Part shown: positions 1 through 48,544 of the stretch, piece by piece
How the letters are laid out: the number at the start of each line of letters is the position of its first letter
Numbering within the stretch: the stretch's first letter is position 1
Notes under the pieces: generated by a model
The model's input: the letters and a program-made list of their open reading frames with translations, nothing else
Databases searched by the model: none
What the model was told of the DNA's origin: nothing
NCBI RefSeq assembly: GCF_014076495.1
Contig: NZ_CP043575.1
Span: forward strand, 1,674,001-1,738,000
Reading direction: 5' to 3'
Length of the DNA stretch: 64,000 nt
From: Comamonas koreensis
Lineage (GTDB): Bacteria; Pseudomonadota; Gammaproteobacteria; Burkholderiales; Burkholderiaceae_C
Position numbers and translations under genes: made by a program

Positions 1-768
1 GAGTAGTAGCTCGGTATATCCAGAAATAGTAGCCAGGGGCGCACGAAGATCGTGACTGATAAAACCTAAAGTTTCTGTTTTTTGTTGATTTTTAACTTTG
101 GCATCAACAATAGTTTTTTGCTGAAGTAAATAGTTCCCGTTGATCATCAAGCAGATGGCGGTGATTGGCATCACTGCGCAAAAAACAAAAACGTAAACAA
201 TTTGAATATAAGAAGATTCCCTTGGATTAGAGGGTATTAGGTCAGGTATAAATAAAGTGACAAATCGAATCAAATAAACCAAGCTTTCGATGGCAAGCGA
301 GGTGGTAAGTAAGCGGTTAACGAAAGACTTTTCACCATATCTAATAACGGTGAGGAATTGAATGAAAACAAATACAAACAAAAAAGAAGTAAAGCTCATC
401 AGTCTATACTGATAATTTGCATTACCCCACATAAACCAAAGAACCAAGACCTCGGAAATTAGCATGCAGGGTATGATAAAATACCCTATCAAAGGCCGGT
501 CATAAAACCTCCTGATACCAAGGGTTTGCACGGCCACACCTAGCGTCAACAAGCCATTTCCAGCAGAAGAGTAAATTGTTGGATTATCACCAAACCAGCC
601 GACATACAAGCACACTGCTAAAGTAGCAATTAAAAAACCAAGTGTGTATAGTCCAATTCTCTTAACACCAATTTGGCGAGTATGGTTGGACAAAACCAGA
701 GGAATAAGTGCGAGCCCTGAAACGAAGGCGGACGTGGCAAAGAATAAATTGTAGTTAATCGCGATCAT
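1..768 (-). CDS. Membrane sensor histidine kinase, N-terminal part (cut by window edge)
   Basis: Reading the minus strand from ATG at 768-766 gives 256 open codons that run off the window at base 1. The first ~210 residues are strongly hydrophobic with roughly seven membrane segments. They are followed by a short polar linker and an H-box, FISHDLRAPLATISGY, with the phosphoacceptor at His239. This is a HisKA-type sensor kinase with a 7TM-like membrane input domain; the catalytic ATPase domain lies outside the window. The codons are AT-rich compared with everything after about 2.0 kb, and no partner regulator is visible, which suggests acquired DNA. The ligand cannot be inferred. Confidence 0.85.
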   Translation of the reverse strand, partial: MIAINYNLFFATSAFVSGLALIPLVLSNHTRQIGVKRIGLYTLGFLIATLAVCLYVGWFGDNPTIYSSAGNGLLTLGVAVQTLGIRRFYDRPLIGYFIIPCMLISEVLVLWFMWGNANYQYRLMSFTSFLFVFVFIQFLTVIRYGEKSFVNRLLTTSLAIESLVYLIRFVTLFIPDLIPSNPRESSYIQIVYVFVFCAVMPITAICLMINGNYLLQQKTIVDAKVKNQQKTETLGFISHDLRAPLATISGYTELLL

Positions 769-1980: not shown

Positions 1981-2055
1981 TGGTCCCCCCGACAGGAATC
2001 GAACCTGTATCTAGCGCTTAGGAGGCACTCGTTCTATCCATTGAACTACGGAGAG
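1981..2055 (-). tRNA. tRNA-Arg (anticodon CCT)
   Basis: The minus strand folds as a standard cloverleaf. Acceptor stem CTCTCCG pairs with CGGGGGG using two U-G wobbles, with discriminator A and an encoded CCA. The D arm starts TAGTTC, the anticodon loop reads CTCCTAA with anticodon CCT, and the T arm is ACAGG-TTCGATT-CCTGT. Length is 75 nt. tRNA-Arg genes are common attachment sites for genomic islands, and the DNA beyond its 3' end (towards base 1) is atypical, fitting an integration border. Confidence 0.95.
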
Positions 2056-32219: not shown

Positions 32220-33938
32220 ATGGCAACAATGGACAGACGCGCATACGCAGAGACCTATGGGCCCACGGTGGGTGACCGCCTGCGCCTGGCCGATACCGAA
32301 CTGGTCGTGCAGGTGGAGCAGGACTTCACCCTGCGTGCGGGCGGCTACGGCGAAGAGGTGAAGTTTGGCGGTGGCAAGACCATCCGTGATGGCATGGCGC
32401 AAAGCCAGCGCAGCAGTGCGCAGGGCGCGATGGACACGGTGCTGACCAATGCGCTGATCATCGACCACTGGGGCATCGTCAAGGCGGACATTGGCCTGAA
32501 GGCCGGCCGCATTGCCGCGATTGGCAAGGCCGGCAACCCGGACACGCAGCCGGGTGTGGACATCATCATTGGCCCGGGCACCGAGATCATCAGCTGCGAA
32601 GGCATGGTCGTGACCGCTGGCGGCATCGACACGCACATCCACTTCATCGCGCCCCAGCAGATCGAAGAGGCGCTGACCAGCGGCGTGACGACGATGATTG
32701 GTGGCGGCACCGGCCCGGCCACCGGCACCTTTGCGACCACCTGCACGCCCGGCGCCTGGAACATGGAGCGCATGCTGCAGGCGGCCGATGCCTTCCCGAT
32801 GAACCTGGGCTTTCTGGGCAAGGGCAATGCCAGCCTGCCGCTGGCCCTGCATGAGCAGATCGATGCCGGCGCGATTGGCCTCAAGCTGCACGAGGACTGG
32901 GGCAGCACGCCGGCGGCCATCGACAACTGCCTGGATGTGGCCGAGCTCACCGACACCCAGGTGGCGATCCATACCGATACGCTCAACGAAAGCGGCTTTG
33001 TCGAAGACACGGTGGCCGCGTTCAAGGGCCGCACCATCCACACCTTCCACACCGAAGGGGCGGGCGGCGGCCATGCGCCCGATATCTTGAAAGTGGTGGG
33101 CGAGGCCAATGTGCTGCCCAGCTCGACCAACCCGACGCGGCCCTACACGATCAACACCTTGGATGAGCATGTGGACATGCTGATGGTCTGCCACCACCTT
33201 GATGCCGGGATTGCCGAGGACCTGGCCTTTGCTGAAAGCCGCATCCGCAAGGAAACCATTGCGGCCGAGGATATCCTGCACGACATTGGCGCCATCAGCA
33301 TGTTCAGCTCCGACAGCCAGGCCATGGGCCGGGTGGGTGAGGTGATCCTGCGCACCTGGCAGACGGCGCACAAGATGAAGCTCCAGCGCGGCGCCTTGCC
33401 CGGCGACAGCGAGCGGCATGACAACTTCCGCATCAAGCGCTACATCGCCAAGTACACGATCAACCCGGCCATTGCCCATGGCATCAGCCATGAGGTGGGC
33501 AGCCTCGAAGTGGGCAAGTGGGCCGATATCGTCATCTGGAAGCCGGCCTTCTTTGGCGTCAAACCCAGCTGCATTCTCAAGGGCGGCTTTATCGCGATGG
33601 CGGCCATGGGTGACCCCAATGCCTCGATCCCGACACCCCAGCCGGTGCACTACCGCCCGATGTTTGGCGCCTTTGGCGGGGCGATTGCCAGGACCTCACT
33701 GACCTTTGTCTCGCAAGCGGGCTTGGCTGCCGGCATTGGCCAGCGCTTTGGCCTGGCCAAGACCTTGTCGGCTGTCAAAGGCATACGCGGCTTGCAAAAG
33801 CAGCACATGGTGCACAACGACCTGGCGCCGCACATGGAGGTCGATGCCCAGACCTATGCGGTGCGCGCCGATGGCCAGCTGCTGACCTGCGAGCCAGCGA
33901 GCAGCCTGCCGATGGCCCAGCGTTATTTTCTGTTTTGA
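32220..33938 (+). CDS. ureC: Urease subunit alpha (catalytic)
   Basis: The product has 572 aa from ATG 32220, chosen because ACAGGA lies 8 nt upstream; ATG 32211 is in frame but too close to that site. Active-site features are all present: HIHFI (Ni ligands), the carbamylated lysine in [39 protein letters not shown], and the flap cysteine in MVCHHLD. It hydrolyses urea at a two-nickel centre. Confidence 0.98.
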
Positions 33939-35705: not shown

Positions 35706-36361
35706 GCACTGCACTGCACCACATCCCCCACCGCAGCAAAAAGCTGCCTCCGCTGCGCGTTGGTATCGGCGGGCCCGTGGGCTCGGGCAAGACCACCATC
35801 TTGGAGATGCTGTGCAAGGCCATGCGCGACAAATGGGACCTGATCGCCATCACCAACGACATCTACACCAAGGAAGACCAGCGCCTGCTGACCGTCAGCG
35901 GCGCGCTGCCAGCCGAGCGCATCATGGGGGTGGAGACGGGCGGCTGCCCGCACACGGCGATCCGCGAAGATGCCTCCATCAACCTCGAAGCCATCGACCG
36001 CATGCTGGGCCAGTTTCCCGATGCCGATATCGTGTTTATCGAATCGGGCGGCGACAACCTGGCTGCGACCTTCAGCCCCGAGCTGTCGGACCTGACCATC
36101 TATGTGATCGATGTGGCGGCCGGCGAAAAGATTCCGCGCAAGGGCGGCCCGGGCATCACCAAGAGCGATCTGTTTGTGATCAACAAGACCGATCTGGCCC
36201 CCTATGTCGGTGCCAACCTGGAGGTGATGCGCAGCGACACCGAACGCATGCGCAGCACGCCCAAAGGCACCAAGCCCTTTGTGATGACCAACCTGAAGAC
36301 ACTGGACGGCCTCGATGAGGTGGTGGCCTTTATCGAAAAGCAGGGCCTGCTGCTGGGCTGA
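35702..36361 (+). CDS. ureG: Urease accessory GTPase UreG
   Basis: The product has 219 aa. It is a SIMIBI-class GTPase with P-loop [10 protein letters not shown] (about 23-32), [19 protein letters not shown] holding the CPH nickel-binding motif, [16 protein letters not shown], and [10 protein letters not shown] for guanine recognition. It couples GTP hydrolysis to nickel transfer. It is the last urease gene and converges on the gene at 36380. Confidence 0.97.
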
Positions 36362-36379: not shown

Positions 36380-36883
36380 TCAGCGCTGGGGCGTATTGAG
36401 GCTAAAAGCCGTATCGGGGTGCTCGCGGCCCTGCTGCGTAATCCAGGCCAGCCAGTCCTGCGCCGTGATCTGCGTGCGGCCTTGCAAGGCCGGGGGCAGG
36501 GCCTCGTAGACCAGCACCTCCAGCGGATGTTGGCCGCCGCTGGTCAGCGCGACGTCCAGCGTCAGCACGCGCTTGGTGTATTCACCCACATCCTGCGGCC
36601 AGATGCCTTCGATGCGGTCCATGGCCTGCTCCAGTGCATCGTTCAAGGGGTAGACCTCGGCGAGCACCAGGCTGCTGCCCTGCAACTGCAGGCCCGGGTA
36701 CCAGCCCAGGTCATACAGCGTACCCGTCAGCAAGCTGCGGCCCAGCAGGGCGATGCCAGGCTGCAGCCGGGCAATGTCGTTCACGCCCCCGGCGCGCAAG
36801 GTGCCATAGACGGCGACATGGCCCGCGCCACAAGGGCGCCAGGGCGGGTCGGTGATAGGGTGTTCTGGGGGGGGAGTCTGCAT
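36380..36883 (-). CDS. Gamma-glutamylcyclotransferase-like (AIG2/GGCT) protein
   Basis: The product has 167 aa from ATG 36883. VAVYGTLRAGGVN near residue 24 is the YGTLR substrate-binding loop of the AIG2/GGCT fold. LYDLGWYPGLQL, LAEVYPLNDALEQAMDRIEG and EYTKRVLTL follow, with a conserved Glu in the DxxEG-like segment. Family members cleave gamma-glutamyl amines or glutathione. It is last in the minus-strand group that starts at 42475, 22 nt after the preceding gene, so it may belong to that pathway or merely be cotranscribed. Confidence 0.83.
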   Translation of the reverse strand: MQTPPPEHPITDPPWRPCGAGHVAVYGTLRAGGVNDIARLQPGIALLGRSLLTGTLYDLGWYPGLQLQGSSLVLAEVYPLNDALEQAMDRIEGIWPQDVGEYTKRVLTLDVALTSGGQHPLEVLVYEALPPALQGRTQITAQDWLAWITQQGREHPDTAFSLNTPQR

Positions 36884-36905
36884 CGAACGCTCGGGTGGAG
36901 ATGGA

Positions 36906-37829
36906 TCAGCCGGCCTGCGCAGGCCGGCCCGCCGCTTGCCGGGTCTTGGCAATTTCGCGGCTGGGTAGCGGGGTCTCGCCGGTGGCCATGCGCATCAGCA
37001 GGCAGTGCAGCATCTCGGTGGACAGGCCATGGAGCACCAGGCGGTGGCCAGCGCGCAAGGTGGACAGGGGTACCAGCGGGTGCTTGTTGTTGAGCATCAC
37101 CAGGTGCTCGGGCGAGGACAGGATCTTGGCCGCATAGATGGCGACGGTCTCATCGAGCTGCAGCGAATTGCTGGCGCGCCAGAAATCGTTGTCGGTCAGC
37201 AGCAGCTGGTAGACCGGCGTGTAGATCTCGATGGCGCTTTGCAGATCGAGAATGTTGAGCCGGCCATGGGGCATCGCGGCCAGCTGCAGCGGTGGGTCGC
37301 AGAGCATGCCAAAGTCGGGCTCGGCCACCGGGCCCATGTGCTGGCCGTGGCTGCGCAGCGTGGTGTTGAGCCGGATGACAAAGTTGAACAGGTTCAGGTC
37401 GTGCTTCAGGAACAGCTCGTCCTTGATGTCATCGATCTCCATCGGGGCCAGCGGCTTGGTGGGCACGGGCGTGGGCGCATTGGCGCCGATAAAGCTCAGG
37501 ATCTGCGAGCCCAGGTGGAAGTGGCGCATGATGAGCCAGTTCGCCTCGGGCGAGACAAAGCGGTTCATGCTGAAGGCCAGGGTGCGGTGCAGCAGCTTGG
37601 AATGCGCCCAGCGCTTGGGCAGCAGCACCTTGAGCACCTGGATCAGAATGATGCTGATGCGCGCAATCGGCCGGATGAAGGGCAACAGAAACTGGCGCGA
37701 GCGGCTGCTCGAATCCTTGAGCCAGGCGGCCTTGACATGGTCGGGCAGCGGCGTGCTGTCGTCCAGGTAGAGCGCGAGCCAGGGGTTGGGGTCGCGCTCG
37801 TCGTGGGGGATGTCCCGAAAATCGGTCAT
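36906..37829 (-). CDS. Uncharacterised protein next to a ketoacyl synthase III (possibly DUF6999)
   Basis: The product has 307 aa. It begins MTDFRDIPHDERDPNPWLAL and holds a hydrophobic stretch (PFIRPIARISIILIQVLKVL, about 50-69) that may associate with membrane. Conserved-looking blocks are FVSPEANWLIMRHFHLGSQI and DELFLKHDLNLFNFVIRLN, plus a His-rich segment around 160-170. No catalytic motif is recognised. I believe proteins of this type are called DUF6999, but cannot verify it. Its ATG overlaps the stop of the ketoacyl synthase gene (ATGA), so the two are translationally coupled and probably work together. Confidence 0.75.
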   Translation of the reverse strand: MTDFRDIPHDERDPNPWLALYLDDSTPLPDHVKAAWLKDSSSRSRQFLLPFIRPIARISIILIQVLKVLLPKRWAHSKLLHRTLAFSMNRFVSPEANWLIMRHFHLGSQILSFIGANAPTPVPTKPLAPMEIDDIKDELFLKHDLNLFNFVIRLNTTLRSHGQHMGPVAEPDFGMLCDPPLQLAAMPHGRLNILDLQSAIEIYTPVYQLLLTDNDFWRASNSLQLDETVAIYAAKILSSPEHLVMLNNKHPLVPLSTLRAGHRLVLHGLSTEMLHCLLMRMATGETPLPSREIAKTRQAAGRPAQAG

Positions 37830-39769
37830 CGTGCGCGCTCCGAGGCCGTGGCTTCCAGAATGTGCCGGAACTGCATCAGGTAGAGCGCAGAGGTATGGCG
37901 TGCGGTCGCGGCAATCGCTGCTGCGGCGGTGCCGGTCTCGTCCAGCGCCATCACCATCTGCACCGCCAGCAGCCAGCGCTCCAGGTGGTCTTCGTCATTG
38001 GCGCCGTGGTACTCCAGAAAGCGGAAGCACTCTGGGCCCAGCGCCAGGTGCTGGCGCAACAGCGGCAGCAGGCTGGGAACGATGCGCTGGCCCGTACCTT
38101 CAATGATGTAGATGGCGCCCAGGAGGCCAATCGGGTTGGGAGTGGCTGCCAGGCTGTGCAGGTAGCTGTTGAGCGCCTCGCCGCCGGGGTTGCGGCGCAG
38201 CTGCTGGATGTCGGTTTCGGTGCCCCCGGCATTCAAGTAGTCCTGGTGCAGGATCTTGAAGTCGTTCTGCTCCTCGCTGGCATGCACGCCCATCAGCGCA
38301 GCCAGCTCGGCATAGGCCCCTGTGAGCGAGGTGGCACCTTCGCGCATCCACAGGCTGCCTTCGCGCACCTGCGGCACCCATTGGCTCATCCAGCGCACAT
38401 AGTCGGCCTGCTGGATCTGGCCGCTGTGGATGCGGTGCACCAGCGGCGTGCGCCAGACCTGGGAGCGGTAGTCATGCCAGATGCTGGCCAGCTCGGTCAG
38501 CAAGGGCGCCAGGCCCGCTGGGGCTGCGGCCGGATCATGGGGCGGGGCGATCAGCGCGCTTTCTGCAGCGGCTGCGGCCTGGGGCGCGCGTTGGGCCGGG
38601 GTGCTGGCGCTGGTGGCAGACGTGCCAGCAGGCGTGCTGCGCTCCACCTCCAGCAGCATATAGCCAGCGGTAAAGCGGCCGGACTCGGGCACAAAGCACA
38701 GCATGGTGTCGCCGGGTTTCAAGCGCTCATGCTGGGTCTGCAGGTATTCGGCGATCATCACAAAAATCGAGGCCGCGCCGGTATTGCCGCGCCAGGCCAG
38801 GTTGCTCCACCAGCGCTCCCGCGGGATCGACAGCTGCGCCTTGTTCAGCAGCTCATCGACGACGGGAATGAATTTCTCGGACGAGTAGTGGCACAGAAAA
38901 TGGTCAATGCCGCGCTCGGGCAGCCAGCCCTGGTGGGCGATGCGGGCGTACTCGTGGATGCAGACATCGAAGAGGTGGGGCAGCAGGCGGATGTCCTGGC
39001 GCAGGGACAGCGCGCCTGCGGCCTCGGCCTCGGCCCAGGAGGGGAAATCGAGGTGGCTGCGCTGGCGGTCATGCGTGAGGCCCAGCTGCATGCACACCGG
39101 GTAGTCGCCGGCAAAGCTGCGCTGGTGGGTCCAGCGCAGTTTGAGGCGCAGGTCGGGGCGCTGGGGCAACGCGGCGCCCTGGCCCAGCAGCACGGCGCCG
39201 GCGCCATCGCTCAGCATCCAGCGCAAAAAGTGCGCATCGAAATCGGTGTTGTAGTCCTGGCCCGCGTAGCGCGAGCGCTTGAAAAGGCGCGAGGGCATCT
39301 CGCTGGCCACCGCCAGCGCATGGGCATGCGTGCCGTGCTCCACCGCCAGCGCCGCGCTTTGCAGCGCACCCACGCTGGCCGCGCAGACGCCCTGCACGCT
39401 GAGCAGCTCCATCGGCGGGGCGGCCATCTCGCCCTGGATCATGCTGGCAAAGCCGGGCATCAGCGCGTCGCCGCCAGAGGACCCGCTGGCCAGAAAGCCA
39501 ATGTCGGCCAGCGGCCGCGCGGCCTGCGCCAGGGCCGCTTCGATGGCGCCCTTGGCCATTTGCGCATTGCTGTAGCGGGTGCTGCCATCGGGCGCAATCG
39601 CGTAGTGGCGCTGCTGGATGCCGTTTTCCGCCAGGATGCGGCGCTTGATGCGTTCGGACAGGCGGTTGAGTGGTGCGACATAGGCATCCATGCCGTCGTT
39701 GGCAATGGGGGCGCCGGGCATGAAGTGACCGGCGGATTCGATATAGACCTGCGAATAAGCGACTGGCAT
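37826..39769 (-). CDS. Ketoacyl-ACP synthase III fused to a haem-oxygenase-like diiron domain
   Basis: The product has 647 aa in two domains. Residues 1-380 are a thiolase-fold KAS III with nucleophile Cys129 (QGVCAASVGAL), His294 (FLCHYSSEKF) and Asn329 (RGNTGAAS), a complete triad; the Cys-His interval is about 30 residues longer than in E. coli FabH. An Ala/Pro linker (380-420) leads to a four-helix TenA/haem-oxygenase-like domain (421-640). Candidate metal ligands there are Glu470/Glu477, Glu499-Glu500 with His508, Glu557 (YIIEGTG), and the HxxxDxxH set His588, Asp592, His595. Such domains (UndA, SznF class) oxidise or decarboxylate substrates with O2. Coupled to the DUF gene and 6 nt after a desaturase gene, it probably builds and oxidatively edits an acyl chain; this is inference. 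Confidence 0.85.
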   Translation of the reverse strand: MPVAYSQVYIESAGHFMPGAPIANDGMDAYVAPLNRLSERIKRRILAENGIQQRHYAIAPDGSTRYSNAQMAKGAIEAALAQAARPLADIGFLASGSSGGDALMPGFASMIQGEMAAPPMELLSVQGVCAASVGALQSAALAVEHGTHAHALAVASEMPSRLFKRSRYAGQDYNTDFDAHFLRWMLSDGAGAVLLGQGAALPQRPDLRLKLRWTHQRSFAGDYPVCMQLGLTHDRQRSHLDFPSWAEAEAAGALSLRQDIRLLPHLFDVCIHEYARIAHQGWLPERGIDHFLCHYSSEKFIPVVDELLNKAQLSIPRERWWSNLAWRGNTGAASIFVMIAEYLQTQHERLKPGDTMLCFVPESGRFTAGYMLLEVERSTPAGTSATSASTPAQRAPQAAAAAESALIAPPHDPAAAPAGLAPLLTELASIWHDYRSQVWRTPLVHRIHSGQIQQADYVRWMSQWVPQVREGSLWMREGATSLTGAYAELAALMGVHASEEQNDFKILHQDYLNAGGTETDIQQLRRNPGGEALNSYLHSLAATPNPIGLLGAIYIIEGTGQRIVPSLLPLLRQHLALGPECFRFLEYHGANDEDHLERWLLAVQMVMALDETGTAAAAIAATARHTSALYLMQFRHILEATASERAR

Positions 39770-39775
39770 AGATGA

Positions 39776-40732
39776 CTACTTTTTCTCCATAGGCGGCATC
39801 AGCGACCGGCTGCGGGCCGATCGGCAAACCATCCCTCCAACAAAGACCCGTGCCATATAGGGCAACAGGCCTGCCTCATTGAGCGCCGGGTGGACCCGGT
39901 GTCGGTATTCTTCAGCATGCAAACGGGTCAACGCGGACCAGTGGGCATGCGGGCATTCATGGTGGGCGGTGTGCAGGCCAATATTAAAGAGCAGCGGGTT
40001 GACCCAGCCTTCAAAATTGCGCGCGTAGTTCAGCATGCCACCGTCGGTATCGTTTTTGGACTTTGGGGACTTGCGGCCATCGGCATGTGCATGCTGCAGG
40101 TAGTTGGTGGCCAGCAGCCAGTGCAGGCCATGGAGCTGGGGCAGGATGACAAAGACCAGCGCCTTTTTCCAATCCAGCGCCAGCAGCCCCGCCCAGCTGC
40201 CCAGCCACAGTGCGTACTGGCCCATGCAGTAGCGAAAGGCGCCGGGCTGGCGCCGGCGCAGCCCCGCCAGCCAGCGGATGAACAGCGGGTACAGCACCCA
40301 GGCCGCCTGCAGCGGGTGGAGCAGGTAGCCCCATAGGTGGTTGCTGTCACCGCCAAAGCGGTAGGTGCGGGCGATGTCCTGCTCGCCATGCTTGTAGCGG
40401 TGGTGGTTGGCCACATGGGCGGGCCAGAACACAAAGGTAGGGTGGCCCTGCAGCAACGTCAGCGCATAGTCGGTGGCGCGGTTGGCCCAGCGGCTGTGCG
40501 GCCCCGTCCACATGCGCAGGTGCGTGTGGTTGTGGTGGATGACGCCGATGCCCAAGGTCAAAAATAGCTGGACCAGATAGAGCCACCAGACCAGGCCATG
40601 CTGCCACTGCCAGGTGGCGATCAGCGGCAGGGCCAGCATGTAGAGCAGCGATTGCCAGTCACGCCAGTGGCGCAGCCGGGGCAGTGTGCGGGAGGCGGTG
40701 GCGGGCAGGGGCGGGCTGTCGTCGCGGGTCAT
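39776..40732 (-). CDS. Membrane fatty acid desaturase
   Basis: The product has 318 aa with about four membrane helices and three histidine clusters of membrane diiron desaturases: HHNHTH (66-71), HVANHH (106-111), and HTAHHECPHAH (254-264). A further His pair in NYLQHAHADG lies near 214. The Lys-rich segment KSPKSKND (222-228) sits between helices. The substrate is likely an acyl-lipid or acyl-ACP/CoA. The gene lies 10 nt after the hydroxylase gene and 6 nt before the KAS III fusion, so it is part of the same operon. Confidence 0.88.
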   Translation of the reverse strand: MTRDDSPPLPATASRTLPRLRHWRDWQSLLYMLALPLIATWQWQHGLVWWLYLVQLFLTLGIGVIHHNHTHLRMWTGPHSRWANRATDYALTLLQGHPTFVFWPAHVANHHRYKHGEQDIARTYRFGGDSNHLWGYLLHPLQAAWVLYPLFIRWLAGLRRRQPGAFRYCMGQYALWLGSWAGLLALDWKKALVFVILPQLHGLHWLLATNYLQHAHADGRKSPKSKNDTDGGMLNYARNFEGWVNPLLFNIGLHTAHHECPHAHWSALTRLHAEEYRHRVHPALNEAGLLPYMARVFVGGMVCRSARSRSLMPPMEKK

Positions 40733-40742
40733 GCCAACCGGG

Positions 40743-41507
40743 TCAAGCAGCGGGGCGGCCTGGGGCCGGGCGTGGAGGGCGCGGGGGCAGCGGGTCTGCT
40801 TCGCTGCGCATCAGGCGGTCCATAAAGGCCAGTGCAAAGCCATAGTTGCCGGCGGGCCGGGCATGGTGCAGGTGGTGGCGGCGGCTGGCAGCCAGCGGGT
40901 GGCGGGGCCCTACGCGCGGGAAGAAGTCGTAATTGGCATGGCCTACGGCGTTCAGGAAGATGCTGAACACCGGCACCGAGGCCAGCGACCAGAAGGCAAA
41001 GTCATGCAGCACCATCGGCAGCAGGATCACATTGCCCAACATCATCGCCTCGATGGGGTGAAAGCTGTAGGTCGACCAAGGCGTGACGACGACCGAGCGG
41101 TGGTGGTCGCCATGGAAGCGCTTGAACCAGCGCGTGTGCAGCAGGCGGTGGTTGATCCAGAAATGCACATCGTTCCAGATCAGCAGCACCCAGATCTCGA
41201 TGGCGATTTGCCAGCCGCTGGGCGCCACTGCAAAATGCGCCCAGCCCAACTGCACGAAGCCCCAGGGCACGACCATGCCCAGGCCAAACACCAGGATCGA
41301 ATGGAAAGACTGGCGCCACTCGCGCCGCAACTGGTCGGGCTTGAGCGGCCGGGTATCGAGCACCTGGCCGATGCCGCGTCGTTGTAGAAAGCCGGTGAGC
41401 GCCGTCATGCCCAGGCCACCCGCCACATACAGGACACTGAAAAATGCCAGGCCCCAAGCCATCACCTGCCAGGCGCTGAGGTCGGAGAAGACTTGGGCGG
41501 CCGTCAT
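40743..41507 (-). CDS. Sterol desaturase/fatty acid hydroxylase superfamily protein
   Basis: The product has 254 aa with four or more membrane helices and the eight-histidine pattern of this superfamily: HFWINHRLLH, FHGDHHRS, FHPIEAM, and the last cluster RRHHLHH. These integral diiron enzymes hydroxylate or desaturate lipids (C-4 methyl sterol oxidase, beta-carotene hydroxylase, alkylglycerol monooxygenase relatives). Its start overlaps the stop of the Bug gene (ATGA). A proline-rich tail of ~20 residues ends the protein. Confidence 0.88.
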   Translation of the reverse strand: MTAAQVFSDLSAWQVMAWGLAFFSVLYVAGGLGMTALTGFLQRRGIGQVLDTRPLKPDQLRREWRQSFHSILVFGLGMVVPWGFVQLGWAHFAVAPSGWQIAIEIWVLLIWNDVHFWINHRLLHTRWFKRFHGDHHRSVVVTPWSTYSFHPIEAMMLGNVILLPMVLHDFAFWSLASVPVFSIFLNAVGHANYDFFPRVGPRHPLAASRRHHLHHARPAGNYGFALAFMDRLMRSEADPLPPRPPRPAPGRPAA

Positions 41508-42475
41508 TGCGCGCGGATGTTCTGCTCTTTGATGATGGCGCCCAGCGCCTTCACATCGGCATCAATGCGGTTTTTCAGGCCTTCGGGCGAGCTGCCCACC
41601 GCCTGCCAGCCCTGCAGGGCGAGCTTTTGGCGCATCTCGGGGCTGCGCACGATCTCGCCCACGGCCGCAGCGAGCTTGTCGACATGGGCCTTGGGCATGG
41701 CCTTGGGGGCGGCCACGGCGTTCCAGATTTCCATGTCGTAGTTGGCAATACCCAGCTCCTTGAGGCTGGGCAGGCCGGGAGCCAGCGGGCTGCGGGCGGC
41801 CGAGCTCACGCCAATGCCGCGCAGCTTGCCGGCCTGGATCTGGTTCATCGCCAGTGCTGGTGGCAGCATCGAGAGCTGCAGATCGCCGCCCTGGATGCCG
41901 TTAAATACCTGCGGGTAGCCGGGGTAGGGGATGTGCTCGGGCTTGATCTTGGCACGGCTCTTGAGCAGCTCCATGCCCAGGTGGCCGATGGTGCCCACGC
42001 CAGGTGAGCCATAGCTCCAGCTGCTGCCCGCCTGGCTGGCGGCCTCGAAAAAGGCCTTGCCCTCCGGGGCCTTGGCCGGGGCGACCAGCACCAGCGGGGC
42101 CACGCCAATCAGGCCGACAGGCTGCAGATCGGTCAGCGGGTCGTAGCGGATCGCGGGGTTGAGCAGCTTGGCAATCGTCATATTGCCGTTGATCATCACG
42201 CTGAAGGTGTAGCCGTCGGTGGCGCGCGCCACGTATTCGGCGGCGATGTTGCCGCCAGCCCCGACCTTGTTCTCGACGATGATCGGTTGGCCCAGGGCCT
42301 TTTCCAGCGGCTCGGCCAGCGCGCGGGCGGTCAGGTCAGGCGAGGATCCTGCCGGGAAGCCCACGATCAGGTGCAGGGGTTTACTCGGCCAGTTGTCCGC
42401 AGCCAGGGCGCCGGTGCTGGCGAGGGTGGCCAAAGTGGCTGCCACCAGGCAGCGGCGGGACAGGGAAAAATGCAT
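41504..42475 (-). CDS. Bug-family (TctC-like) periplasmic solute-binding protein
   Basis: The product has 323 aa: a signal peptide ending GALAADNWP, then PLHLIVGFPAGSSPDLTARA (ligand-binding loop of the Bug family), VENKVGAGGNIAAEYVAR and YGSPGVGTIGHLGMELL. Bug proteins bind carboxylates or other small acids for tripartite transporters or signalling, and are greatly expanded in Burkholderiales. It is the first gene of the six-gene group and is translationally coupled to a lipid hydroxylase, an unusual partner. No TctA/TctB membrane genes are present. Confidence 0.93.
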   Translation of the reverse strand: MHFSLSRRCLVAATLATLASTGALAADNWPSKPLHLIVGFPAGSSPDLTARALAEPLEKALGQPIIVENKVGAGGNIAAEYVARATDGYTFSVMINGNMTIAKLLNPAIRYDPLTDLQPVGLIGVAPLVLVAPAKAPEGKAFFEAASQAGSSWSYGSPGVGTIGHLGMELLKSRAKIKPEHIPYPGYPQVFNGIQGGDLQLSMLPPALAMNQIQAGKLRGIGVSSAARSPLAPGLPSLKELGIANYDMEIWNAVAAPKAMPKAHVDKLAAAVGEIVRSPEMRQKLALQGWQAVGSSPEGLKNRIDADVKALGAIIKEQNIRAQ

Positions 42476-42551
42476 AAAAGCTCCAGATTCGCATGGCTGC
42501 CCGCATGGGTGGAGGTTTATCCGTCTGTACGTCCGCCGGGCTCATACGGGC

Positions 42552-42589
42552 CATAAAAAAAGCGCACAGGCCGGAGGCATGTGCGCTTT
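42552..42589 (-). terminator. Intrinsic terminator of rpoH
   Basis: AAAGCGCACA (42559-42568) pairs perfectly with TGTGCGCTTT (42580-42589). On the minus strand the stem is followed by a T-run (TTTTTTTAT). It separates rpoH from the Bug-led operon. Confidence 0.85.
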
Positions 42590-42647
42590 GATTATCGCCA
42601 ATTGCGATATGGATGTGTGCTGCGATAGCAGATCGTTGCAATACGGC

Positions 42648-45277: not shown

Positions 45278-48200
45278 TCAGCGTTGACGACGTGCGAGCG
45301 CAGCGCCTGCCATCAGCAGCATCGACACCAGCAGCAGGGCCAGCGGCTGGTTGGTGGGCACGGGCGTTGCCGCTTGCGATGGCGGCACCACCACATCGGC
45401 AGGCACGGCGACCAGCATCGGATCGACGATGGCGCCGTTGACCAGGCCGTCTTCGTCGAGCGGGCCGCCGTCGGTCACGGTATAGCGGACCACGCCGCCG
45501 GCCATGCTGGCGCCGGCGATCTCGCTGACCTGGCGCTTGCCGTCTGCTGCGGTATGCACCTTCATCACGCGGCTGTTGGCGGGCAGGTCGGCGGGCACCT
45601 CCAAGCGGACCTGGGCGCTGAAGCCTTCATGGGCGCAGCCCGACAGCGTGAAGGACAGCAGACCGGTGGCGGCTTTCAGGCCGGCGGGCAGCAGGTCGGC
45701 AGGCACTGCGCTGACGCTGGCGTTGGACTGGTCGCAGCGGGTGGCGGCCTGGATGTTCAGGGCCATCGCGGGCAGGTTGCCGCCGGGCGTGGGCAGCTGG
45801 GTGTCGATGAGGTCCTGCACCGGTGGCTCGGGCTCAGGCGCAGGGTGGCCCAGCTCGAAGGAGCCGGTGGCGCTCCAGTCGGACCAGTTGAGGTGCGTAT
45901 CGCGCACGCGCACCCGCCAGTACCAGCGCTCATCCTGGCCCAGCTGCAGCACCTGCGGGGCCTGGCCCTGGAAGGGGTCCCAGGCCGAGCCCTTGCTGCC
46001 ATCGGCCTTGGCCAGCTGCGCATAGCACTGGCGGCCGCCCTGGCGCTCAGCGCCGCTGTCACCGTCTTCATCCCACTTGTAGCCGCAGCTCCAGCGGTCA
46101 CGCAGGCTGTTGCCGCCGGCAATGATGGCGCTGGTGAGCTTGCCGCGCTCCGTGCCCGCATCCACATTCGGGTAGACGCGCTGGGGGTTGGCCAGCAGGT
46201 AGCCCAGCGGCAAGGTCGCAATATCGGCATCCTTTTGCGTGTTGACGCGCACACCATTCAGGTAGGTCCAGTTCTCGCTGCGGGTGTCGTTGCCCCAGAC
46301 GTCGTAGACCGGTTGGCCGGCGGCAAACTGCGGGTCCTTGGAGACCTGCCATTGCGCCTCATAGAGCGCCGGGCCTGCGCCTGTGCGGTAGGCGAGCTTC
46401 AGGCTGGCCGGGTCGACCTGGCCGAGCTTGGCCTGGACCAGCTCCGGCTGGAAGGACCAGGCCTGGCTGGTGATCGCGATGCTGTCGTCGGGCGTGCTGC
46501 TGGTGGTGGACGCACCCAGGTCGTAGCGCTTCCAGGTCAAAGCCGGGGTGGCGCTGCCAAAGCTGGCTTCCAAGGTGCCGTAGCCAAAGCTGAGCTTGGT
46601 GTTGGCGATGACGTCCAGGTCGCTGTCATCGCTTTGCTTGGCGCCTTCGAGCGCGCCGCTGCCCGAAGCCACATTCAGCCAGAGGTGGCGGCTGTTCATC
46701 GAATTGCCGCGCTCGTAGAAGTGCACATGGCCGTTCAAGTTGGCGGTGATGGCGCCGGTCGTGCGGCCATAGTCTTCCATCTGGGCGATGAAATCGCAGG
46801 TGGCCATCACCTCGCCTTGGCGCCATTTTTCGCTCAGGCAAGGGTGGTGGTTGAGCAGCACCATATAGGGCTTCTTGTCCACACGGGTCTGGGCCATCAG
46901 GCCGGTAAACCAGTTCAGGTGCTCTTGCATGTAGTCGGCGCGAAAGAGCCCGCGGCCGTTGTCGTAGCCGGTCCAGCCGCCGGTGTTGTGCATGGCCGAG
47001 GCGGGGTTGAAATCGCTGCCGACAATGCGCATGCCCAGGTAGTCCAGCTGGTACCAGTGCAGCGGGTGCTTTTGAGAGCCATTGGCGGGCATGCGGTTGA
47101 AGTACTTGCGGTAGGTCTTGGCCCAGCTTTTCTCGCTGCCGGCGCTGGCCTGCTCGCCGCCAAAGTACTCGTGGTTGCCGGGCGAGGGGATCAGCGGCAC
47201 ATAGGCCGTGATGGCGGCGAGCGGGCCGAAGAACTGGTCTTTCCAGTTGCTGCGCGTACCGCCCGATCCGACCAGGTCGCCGGGCACCATGAAGCCGGCC
47301 AGGCTCTGCGCGCACTGGGCAGCAGAGCCCGCGCAGTCGTTGTTGATCACGCCCAGGGTGATGTTCTTGAGGCGGTTGGCCAGGCCATCCTGGGTGTCCG
47401 AGACCACGGCGAACTTGGCGCTCGCAACGCCATCGCCCTCGCGCGGCCAGGTCTTGAACTGGAAGGGGCCGGCCAGCTTGGGCGCTGCACTGGTGCCGGT
47501 GACCACCGCGTACTCATAGAGCGTGTTCGATTGCAGGCCGGCAATATCGGCAAAAAATATGCTGCTGTCAGCAAAGTCACCCACCGGGTTGATGGCGGGC
47601 GCCAAGGTGTAAGGCCCGCTGCTGCCGGCCAGGCGCCACCAGATGGTGGGGGCCGGTTCGCTGGTCTCCAGCATCACCGCCATGTGGTCGGGGCCGGGGT
47701 TCTGCAAGGTGGGGCCCACGGTCAGCGCGGGCGCGTTGGCAGTGCTGGGCAGCTTGGCGGGGTCAAAGGGCTTGGGTGGTTCGCTGCTGGTTTGCGTCAG
47801 CACCACATCATCGAGGCCCCAGTACCAGTTGTTGTCGGTGTTCAGGTAGCTAAAGCGCAGGCTGACTTTTTTGGCGCCGGCCGGGGTACTGAAGGCCAGG
47901 CTCTCGGTCTGGTTCAGGCGCGAGGCACTGGTCTCATGCAGCAGGGTCTGCACGGAGCTGTCATCAAACACGGCCTCGACCTTGATGCTCTCCTTCTTGG
48001 TCGAGCCCATCTGGAAATGGTTGAGAAAGCCCAACGCGTAGCTGCCGCCGCCCAGCACCGCAATGCTGGGGCTTTCCATCACGGTGTTGAAGAACAGACC
48101 GCTGTTGGGCCGCAGGCCATCGGATTCGGCCACCGCGATCTTGCCGCTGGCCTTTGTCAGCTTGGCGCGATCGCCGCCCGAGACCTGCGCGGTCCAGTAG

Positions 48201-48448
48201 GCGGGCGTGACAAACTTCCAGCCCAGCCAGGGCAGTTTGGCGGCGGTGGAGCGGCCACTGGTGGCCACTGTCTCGGCATTCTCTAGGCGCATTGTCCAGC
48301 CAGCTGGCCCGGTCGTGCCCAGGCCGCTGGGTGCATCGGCGCCCGCCGCATTGAAATTCTCGCTAAAGACCACCGTTTGGGCCAGGGCCAGTCCGCTGAC
48401 TGCCCAGAGCCCGGCGGCACACAGCTGCCGCAAGCTTGCTATTTTCAT
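45278..48448 (-). CDS. Secreted metallophosphoesterase with lectin-like and fibronectin-like domains
   Basis: The product has 1056 aa from ATG 48448. A signal peptide (ending GLALAQTV) is followed by a jelly-roll-like region (25-215) and a purple-acid-phosphatase-type Fn3 domain (about 225-330). A calcineurin-like metallophosphoesterase domain follows with FAVVSDTQDG, MVPGDLVG, SPGNHEYFG, LLNHHPC and NGHVHFYERG, all five blocks present. A further Fn3-like part (YWRVRVRDTHLNWSDW) and a beta domain come next. The end is VPTNQPLALLLVSMLLMAGA plus ALARRQR, a hydrophobic helix and basic tail like IPTL/PEP-CTERM sorting signals. It is probably exported and surface-linked for phosphate scavenging. 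Confidence 0.85.
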   Translation of the reverse strand: MKIASLRQLCAAGLWAVSGLALAQTVVFSENFNAAGADAPSGLGTTGPAGWTMRLENAETVATSGRSTAAKLPWLGWKFVTPAYWTAQVSGGDRAKLTKASGKIAVAESDGLRPNSGLFFNTVMESPSIAVLGGGSYALGFLNHFQMGSTKKESIKVEAVFDDSSVQTLLHETSASRLNQTESLAFSTPAGAKKVSLRFSYLNTDNNWYWGLDDVVLTQTSSEPPKPFDPAKLPSTANAPALTVGPTLQNPGPDHMAVMLETSEPAPTIWWRLAGSSGPYTLAPAINPVGDFADSSIFFADIAGLQSNTLYEYAVVTGTSAAPKLAGPFQFKTWPREGDGVASAKFAVVSDTQDGLANRLKNITLGVINNDCAGSAAQCAQSLAGFMVPGDLVGSGGTRSNWKDQFFGPLAAITAYVPLIPSPGNHEYFGGEQASAGSEKSWAKTYRKYFNRMPANGSQKHPLHWYQLDYLGMRIVGSDFNPASAMHNTGGWTGYDNGRGLFRADYMQEHLNWFTGLMAQTRVDKKPYMVLLNHHPCLSEKWRQGEVMATCDFIAQMEDYGRTTGAITANLNGHVHFYERGNSMNSRHLWLNVASGSGALEGAKQSDDSDLDVIANTKLSFGYGTLEASFGSATPALTWKRYDLGASTTSSTPDDSIAITSQAWSFQPELVQAKLGQVDPASLKLAYRTGAGPALYEAQWQVSKDPQFAAGQPVYDVWGNDTRSENWTYLNGVRVNTQKDADIATLPLGYLLANPQRVYPNVDAGTERGKLTSAIIAGGNSLRDRWSCGYKWDEDGDSGAERQGGRQCYAQLAKADGSKGSAWDPFQGQAPQVLQLGQDERWYWRVRVRDTHLNWSDWSATGSFELGHPAPEPEPPVQDLIDTQLPTPGGNLPAMALNIQAATRCDQSNASVSAVPADLLPAGLKAATGLLSFTLSGCAHEGFSAQVRLEVPADLPANSRVMKVHTAADGKRQVSEIAGASMAGGVVRYTVTDGGPLDEDGLVNGAIVDPMLVAVPADVVVPPSQAATPVPTNQPLALLLVSMLLMAGAALARRQR

Positions 48449-48544
48449 GAAACCTCCTGCCGTCAAGGCCGATGTGGTGAATGCATGTCGTCACCAGGAA
48501 GTGCAAAAAATAACAAGATTGCATGAAACTACAATGACGCGGGC

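Follow-up and report, generated by a model that had tools for sequence, protein, structure and literature searches.

A conserved cassette of ketosynthase, heme-oxygenase-like oxidase and DUF6999 genes in Comamonas koreensis with a possible role in lipid biosynthesis

Introduction

The window analysed here, a stretch of 64,000 nucleotides (nt) of Comamonas koreensis contig NZ_CP043575.1, carries at 36380-42475 a run of six open reading frames (ORFs), all on the minus strand according to the ORF list and the sequence. The inner four encode a membrane hydroxylase, a membrane desaturase, a fusion of a ketosynthase with a heme-oxygenase-like (HO-like) oxidase domain, and a protein of the family DUF6999; judged from their recurrence across genomes, these four genes are the conserved unit. 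They form a real, conserved and apparently undescribed gene set, no description of which was found in the titles and abstract starts of the open-licence PubMed Central (PMC) literature, a scope outside which subscription papers lie. We tentatively propose, at a little under an even chance, that these genes are a cassette dedicated to lipid biosynthesis, whose ketosynthase belongs to a DarA-free branch of the DarB/StlD-like enzymes, with the HO-like oxidase in DarA's place. By gene content, the ketosynthase, the HO-like oxidase and DUF6999 are the constant partners, which the membrane desaturase and hydroxylase join in many Proteobacteria. The cassette genes of the window are as follows.

40743-41507, minus strand: sterol-desaturase-type fatty-acid hydroxylase (PF04116), Pfam FA_hydroxylase 73.1 bits against a gathering score of 31
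39776-40732, minus strand: membrane fatty-acid desaturase (PF00487), Pfam FA_desaturase 76.9 bits against 29.7
37826-39769, minus strand: ketosynthase/HO fusion, with a DarB/StlD-like ketosynthase at residues 1-380, a linker, and a heme-oxygenase-like oxidase domain at about 416-647
36906-37829, minus strand: DUF6999 (PF22523), Pfam 427.1 bits against 27

Within the fusion ORF, Pfam reports Haem_oxygenas_2 at 37.3 bits and ACP_syn_III_C at 30.1 bits. The matches of all six ORFs exceed their gathering scores, with the exception of the N-terminal ACP_syn_III model (20.9 against 24).

Conservation and distribution of the cassette

A survey resting on genome collections covered 41 genomes (the own genome, 24 of the same genus and 16 others of the same order). 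Besides the own genome, 20 of the 24 same-genus genomes and two of the 16 others carry the full fusion, which places it in 21 of 25 genomes of the genus. Hydroxylase, desaturase, fusion and DUF6999 stand together in 20 of these 21 copies, the exception being locus L125, where the contig breaks off shortly past the fusion.

Beyond the genus, a DUF6999 profile scan of 84,980 species, one genome per species, returned 396 stretches with DUF6999 relatives, and neighbours were read for the best 80 of them, ranked by similarity to a Sphingomonas query, so that this sample of named loci leans that way. Homologues of both the ketosynthase and the HO domain are present at 76 of the 80; L057, L061 and L063 are truncated by contig ends, and L042 has an HO gene without an adjacent ketosynthase. 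DUF6999 is thus a constant partner of ketosynthase and HO domain, and co-occurrence, on which the original prediction had staked itself, is borne out for the inner genes. The core, made up of the ketosynthase and HO-like oxidase (fused or separate) plus DUF6999, is found again in Alpha-, Beta- and Gammaproteobacteria, in Myxococcota and in one metagenome-assembled genome (MAG) of the Acidobacteriota, and record titles among the named loci include Sphingomonas, Novosphingobium, Sneathiella, Luteimonas, Lysobacter, Achromobacter, Bordetella, Variovorax, Collimonas, Cellvibrio, Myxococcus, Corallococcus and the Acidobacteria MAG. A plasmid record of 801 kb from Pseudoalteromonas sp. THAF3 carries, one after another, genes for a ketosynthase, an 'iron-containing redox enzyme' and a DUF6999 protein.

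The gene pairs are always co-directional where both genes were found. Measured over loci of all sources minus the window, and to the start of homology instead of a mapped start codon, pairs at most 150 nt apart make up 56 of 60 for hydroxylase-desaturase, 61 of 62 for desaturase-ketosynthase and 94 of 101 for HO-DUF6999. Where a locus holds both ketosynthase and HO domain, the two are fused in 78 of 102 cases and encoded separately in 24, a count that includes the window and genomes outside the named set and in which one organism may appear under two loci; fusion is therefore not essential.

Other recurrent neighbours, found by ORF clustering at the 80 named loci, are mostly of lineage level, such as a TetR regulator and an LplT-PlsC-AAS-like protein in alphaproteobacteria, with cluster counts that depend on genus labels taken from record titles. 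The widest cluster (five labels) probably represents ATP-binding cassette (ABC) transporters at varying places, to judge from one sequence.

Window-type hydroxylase and desaturase, called at a score cut of 120 bits, occur together at 37 of the 80 named loci, the hydroxylase alone at 3, the desaturase alone at 1 and neither at 39, four of the latter being incomplete or lacking the ketosynthase (L057, L061, L063, L042). The His boxes are well kept: H115/H120/H124, H132/H135/H136 and H211/H214/H215 of the hydroxylase in 64/64 sequences, and H67/H69/H71, H106/H110/H111 and H258 of the desaturase in 63/63, with H254/H257 in 62/63.

Some loci depart from this layout. In L054, L060 and L065 (myxobacteria and the Acidobacteria MAG; Pfam was run on L060 and L065), a desaturase of another kind is encoded between HO and DUF6999; its tail is visible where L057 and L061 are cut off, and the core may here have been paired with a desaturase independently. 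In two gammaproteobacterial cassettes, membrane-like proteins of 185 and 188 amino acids (L171:7436-7993 and L032:11441-12007), 64% identical to each other, are encoded directly upstream of the ketosynthase and gave no Pfam match above cut-off.

The ketosynthase and its DarB-like relatives

The original prediction had named a ketoacyl synthase III (KAS III). An acyl carrier protein (ACP) synthase III-type domain is indeed recognised by Pfam; the protein is not a generic KAS III, and its nearest relatives are StlD (E 4.9e-86) and DarB, which points to the joining of two acyl units. StlD and DarB are makers of cyclohexanediones and dialkylresorcinols, compounds with which a 2013 paper by Fuchs and colleagues reportedly deals. 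Alignment to StlD identifies a triad, Cys129-His294-Asn329, kept in 102/102 cassette ketosynthases.

Cassette ketosynthases stand apart from DarB-like relatives in score. Among 398 genomes of the phylum, DUF6999 was found in nine, and a ketosynthase of at least 567 bits in the same nine, with at most four ketosynthase candidates scored per genome. Next, at 347-378 bits, come 12 loci, each in a different genome; one of these genomes (G413) has a cassette as well. Partial hits of at most 80 bits follow, and no locus fell between 379 and 566 bits. This gap is partly circular, since the profile drew rows from seven of the nine cassette genomes and the remaining two belong to the window's genus. 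When a profile rebuilt from the same alignment was run on all 102 cassette ketosynthases, among them lineages outside the profile (Myxococcota, Acidobacteriota, Luteimonas), the lowest cassette score was 443.7 bits and the highest of six DarB controls 379.0; the separation in ketosynthase score thus held on rows outside the profile. The Caulobacter vibrioides control genome also matches DUF6999.

The two groups differ in gene content as well. A DarA-like gene adjoins the ketosynthase in 12/12 lower-band DarB-like loci and a BtrH-like gene lies in the stretch in 12/12, these names resting on position beside the DarB-like gene, on a gene table in an excerpt of PMC3949708 and on sequence reading, with no profile involved. 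HO and DUF6999 homologues were looked for in these 12 control loci, and none turned up. Conversely, loci L020-L127 and L171, which are the cassette loci plus a few without a cassette (e.g., L022, L028), contain no DarA or BtrH homologue, and a genome-wide search found DarA in one cassette genome out of nine, G413, where it sits beside that genome's separate DarB.

In a tree of 50 ketosynthase rows, the six DarB controls form one clade (100/100), and the named rows nearest to the window ketosynthase are Corticibacter and Variovorax (Comamonadaceae). On this tree the fused label, carried by 33 rows, requires three changes and the separate label, carried by 11, two, so that the domains may have been joined or split on more than one occasion.

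The oxidase domain and DUF6999

The second domain of the fusion has the HO-like helical fold, and in structural comparison 3dde, CADD and HrmI outscore UndA as matches. Its later-helix ligands E557, H588, D592 and H595, aligned to 3dde, are each kept in 104/104 HO domains, with a spacing of 3 from the Asp to the last His as against 5 in MboA, whose ligands are given in an excerpt of PMC13185094 as Glu86/His89 (E-x-x-H), His172, Asp176 and His181. The E-x-x-H pair is altered: E500 is present in 104/104, yet Asp503 replaces the His in 104/104, at a position that is a His in 3dde. Glu470 is replaced by Asp or Gln in 12/104.

DUF6999 is predicted to be all-helical, with invariant His, Asp and Glu residues. 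A known fold was sought in the PDB and none stood out clearly; an HO-like row (PolF) appeared at E 4.9 only, which is no evidence of kinship. A search of the open-licence PMC literature for the name DUF6999 gave no papers. One odd record is L046, titled Bacillus sp. 2B10, whose DUF6999 is 80% identical to the Sphingomonas query and whose ketosynthase and HO genes are separate as in sphingomonads; given this sphingomonad-like protein and arrangement, the record is probably mislabelled or contaminated.

Proposed pathway and alternatives

In the proposed pathway, the ketosynthase, through its Cys-His-Asn triad, would join two acyl thioesters from fatty-acid metabolism, as DarB and StlD do, to give a condensation product of the 2,5-dialkyl-cyclohexane-1,3-dione type. 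The fused or adjacent HO-like oxidase would then use O2 to oxidise (aromatise, hydroxylate or decarboxylate) the condensed product, replacing the aromatase DarA; DUF6999 could act as a second catalyst or as a membrane- or substrate-handling partner; and the desaturase and hydroxylase would act on the alkyl chains, either prior to condensation or following it. The general idea of the original prediction, an oxidised acyl product made by a KAS III/HO-like fusion, a desaturase and a hydroxylase, survives in this scheme, and the inner genes do co-occur. A further-reaching version, in which we place somewhat less confidence, is that the cassettes represent a widespread, unrecognised pathway to a new class of two-chain cyclic lipids, with the ring product passed directly to the fused or adjacent iron oxidase, whose metal site would be unusual in having Asp for His, and with DUF6999 as a new enzyme family.

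Several observations weigh against a DarB/StlD-like pathway of this kind. The ketosynthase scores far under the NCBI cut-offs for StlD/DarB (310.5 bits against 450 for NF005293 and 251.9 against 550 for NF053539), and its chemistry may accordingly have diverged. In the midpoint-rooted tree, the DarB controls group with the myxobacterial and acidobacterial cassettes (83/83); the cassette ketosynthases are thus not recovered there as a single clade, and it is scores and gene content that set them apart. Asp503 in place of the usual ligand His suggests that diiron loading of the HO domain is not assured. Furthermore, core-only cassettes imply that the desaturase and hydroxylase steps would be dispensable or encoded elsewhere, and L042 lacks an adjoining ketosynthase.

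Among the alternatives, an alkene or ketone pathway is possible but unlikely. In such a pathway the ketosynthase would make a beta-keto (or, once reduced, beta-hydroxy) acid, UndA-like decarboxylation by the HO domain would yield a long-chain alkene or enone, and the desaturase and hydroxylase would tailor it; however, the ketosynthase is nearest to StlD, the HO-fold proteins 3dde, CADD and HrmI score higher than UndA, and no recurrent reductase lies beside the core among the top 25 neighbour clusters of the 80 named loci.

Somewhat less probable still is a role in membrane-lipid or redox-lipid maintenance, whereby an unsecreted modified lipid would help under stress and the HO domain would act on lipid with O2. 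The presence of the cassette in 21 of 25 own-genus genomes, steadier than that of a typical sporadic metabolite, is consistent with such a role, as is an LplT-PlsC-acyl-ACP-synthetase-like gene near the core in seven alphaproteobacterial loci (domains checked in L033). According to an excerpt of PMC13232832, the HO-fold protein DtpC protects dried Acinetobacter, but DtpC is there in an operon with katE, and the word 'ketoacyl' is absent from its text.

Genomic context of the cassette

The remaining features of the gene run and its upstream border are the following.

41504-42475, minus strand: Bug/TctC periplasmic binding protein, Pfam TctC 172.1 bits
36380-36883, minus strand: gamma-glutamylcyclotransferase-like gene (GGCT; Pfam GGACT 57.3 bits), a lineage neighbour
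about 42555-42589, minus strand: terminator-like stem and U-run downstream of rpoH and upstream of the six-gene run, from folding of 42540-42590

For the GGCT gene, the ATG at 36883 was chosen as the likelier start, the mechanical ORF 36380-36952 beginning at a TTG. The 4-nt overlaps (ATGA) of Bug with hydroxylase and of fusion with DUF6999, and the gaps of 10, 6 and, counting GGCT from its ATG, 22 nt, agree with what had been predicted for the six minus-strand genes (4-nt overlaps and gaps of 6-22 nt), as the ORF list and the sequence confirm. Judged from this spacing, a single transcript over all six genes is plausible. Upstream lies a gene that reads as rpoH from its sigma-32-like translation, and the 51-nt stretch with a stem after it (-20.3 kcal/mol, z -3.14; a pattern scan did not list the stem) separates rpoH from the run. 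The two promoter-like sites given by that scan, against 1.1 expected by chance, lie on the plus strand, and at the 3' end of the run it gave no terminator-like site. Downstream, a convergent cluster appears from its translations to encode urease, its last plus-strand gene ending at 36361.

The idea of a functional unit of all six genes, in which Bug would sense or transport the product and GGCT would take part, fares worst and is highly improbable: the spacing in the window speaks for it, as do the 17 of 21 own-genus loci in which the Bug orthologue, with rpoH, immediately precedes the cassette, and L120 (107 bits) and Variovorax L109 (145 bits), where a different and weaker Bug gene takes that position, but the Bug orthologue still adjoins rpoH in 3/3 tested genomes with the cassette elsewhere (G004, G009, G010; a fourth such genome is G014), a Bug homologue lies in the fetched stretch of only 4 of the 80 named loci (directly upstream in one), and GGCT follows the cassette in 5 of 21 own-genus loci. 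The own genome, moreover, has 75 TctC matches, 74 of them above cut-off, so that Bug as a neighbour says little. The four own-genus loci without the upstream orthologue have other genes there (L023, L025, L125) or, in L120, the different Bug. The six genes are accordingly rejected as a functional unit; the inner four of the predicted operon stand, and Bug and GGCT fall away as members, Bug probably being a lineage neighbour beside rpoH outside the cassette and GGCT, by its distribution, likewise appearing as a lineage neighbour.

Elsewhere in the window, positions 1-2000, next to a tRNA-Arg at 1981-2055 (minus strand), are AT-rich, their GC content being 48% where all other 2-kb steps have 59-68%, and may mark an island border; on sequence reading, the open ORF there at 1-768 (minus strand) resembles a membrane histidine kinase. 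The Rfam model '5_ureB_sRNA' matches at 32381-32670 (minus strand, 122.3 bits) inside ureC, as either an antisense RNA or conserved coding sequence read backwards, and a large minus-strand ORF at 45278-48466 has a metallophosphoesterase-like look in translation.

Significance

Given 396 DUF6999 stretches in 84,980 species, a figure that counts DUF6999, there appears to be no known product for a lipid pathway that many bacteria from soil, water and hosts possess. The cassette offers a three-protein expression set, a substitution of an O2-using enzyme for DarA that can be put to the test, an HO-fold oxidase whose ligands are altered, and a handle on DUF6999. Its product may also matter ecologically, since DarB-type products serve as pigment parts (excerpt of PMC3949708) and as cell-cell signals (excerpt of PMC4414361).

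Comparison with known systems

The closest known counterpart is the DarB/StlD system with DarA, which the cassette resembles in ketosynthase sequence and in the Cys-His-Asn triad, the window ketosynthase further sharing the HYSS motif with StlD; it differs in having an HO-like oxidase and DUF6999 instead of DarA and BtrH, and in scores below the NCBI cut-offs. Pyrone ketosynthases of the PpyS/CorB type are similar only weakly in sequence (CorB, 4yuc, at E 0.0019 as against 4.9e-86 for StlD), but PpyS, as stated in an excerpt of PMC4578411, likewise joins two acyl units, as is proposed for the cassette ketosynthase. From the heme-oxygenase-like diiron oxidases UndA, CADD, HrmI and MboA, finally, the cassette oxidase is distinguished by E-x-x-D instead of E-x-x-H and by its fusion to, or adjacency with, a ketosynthase.

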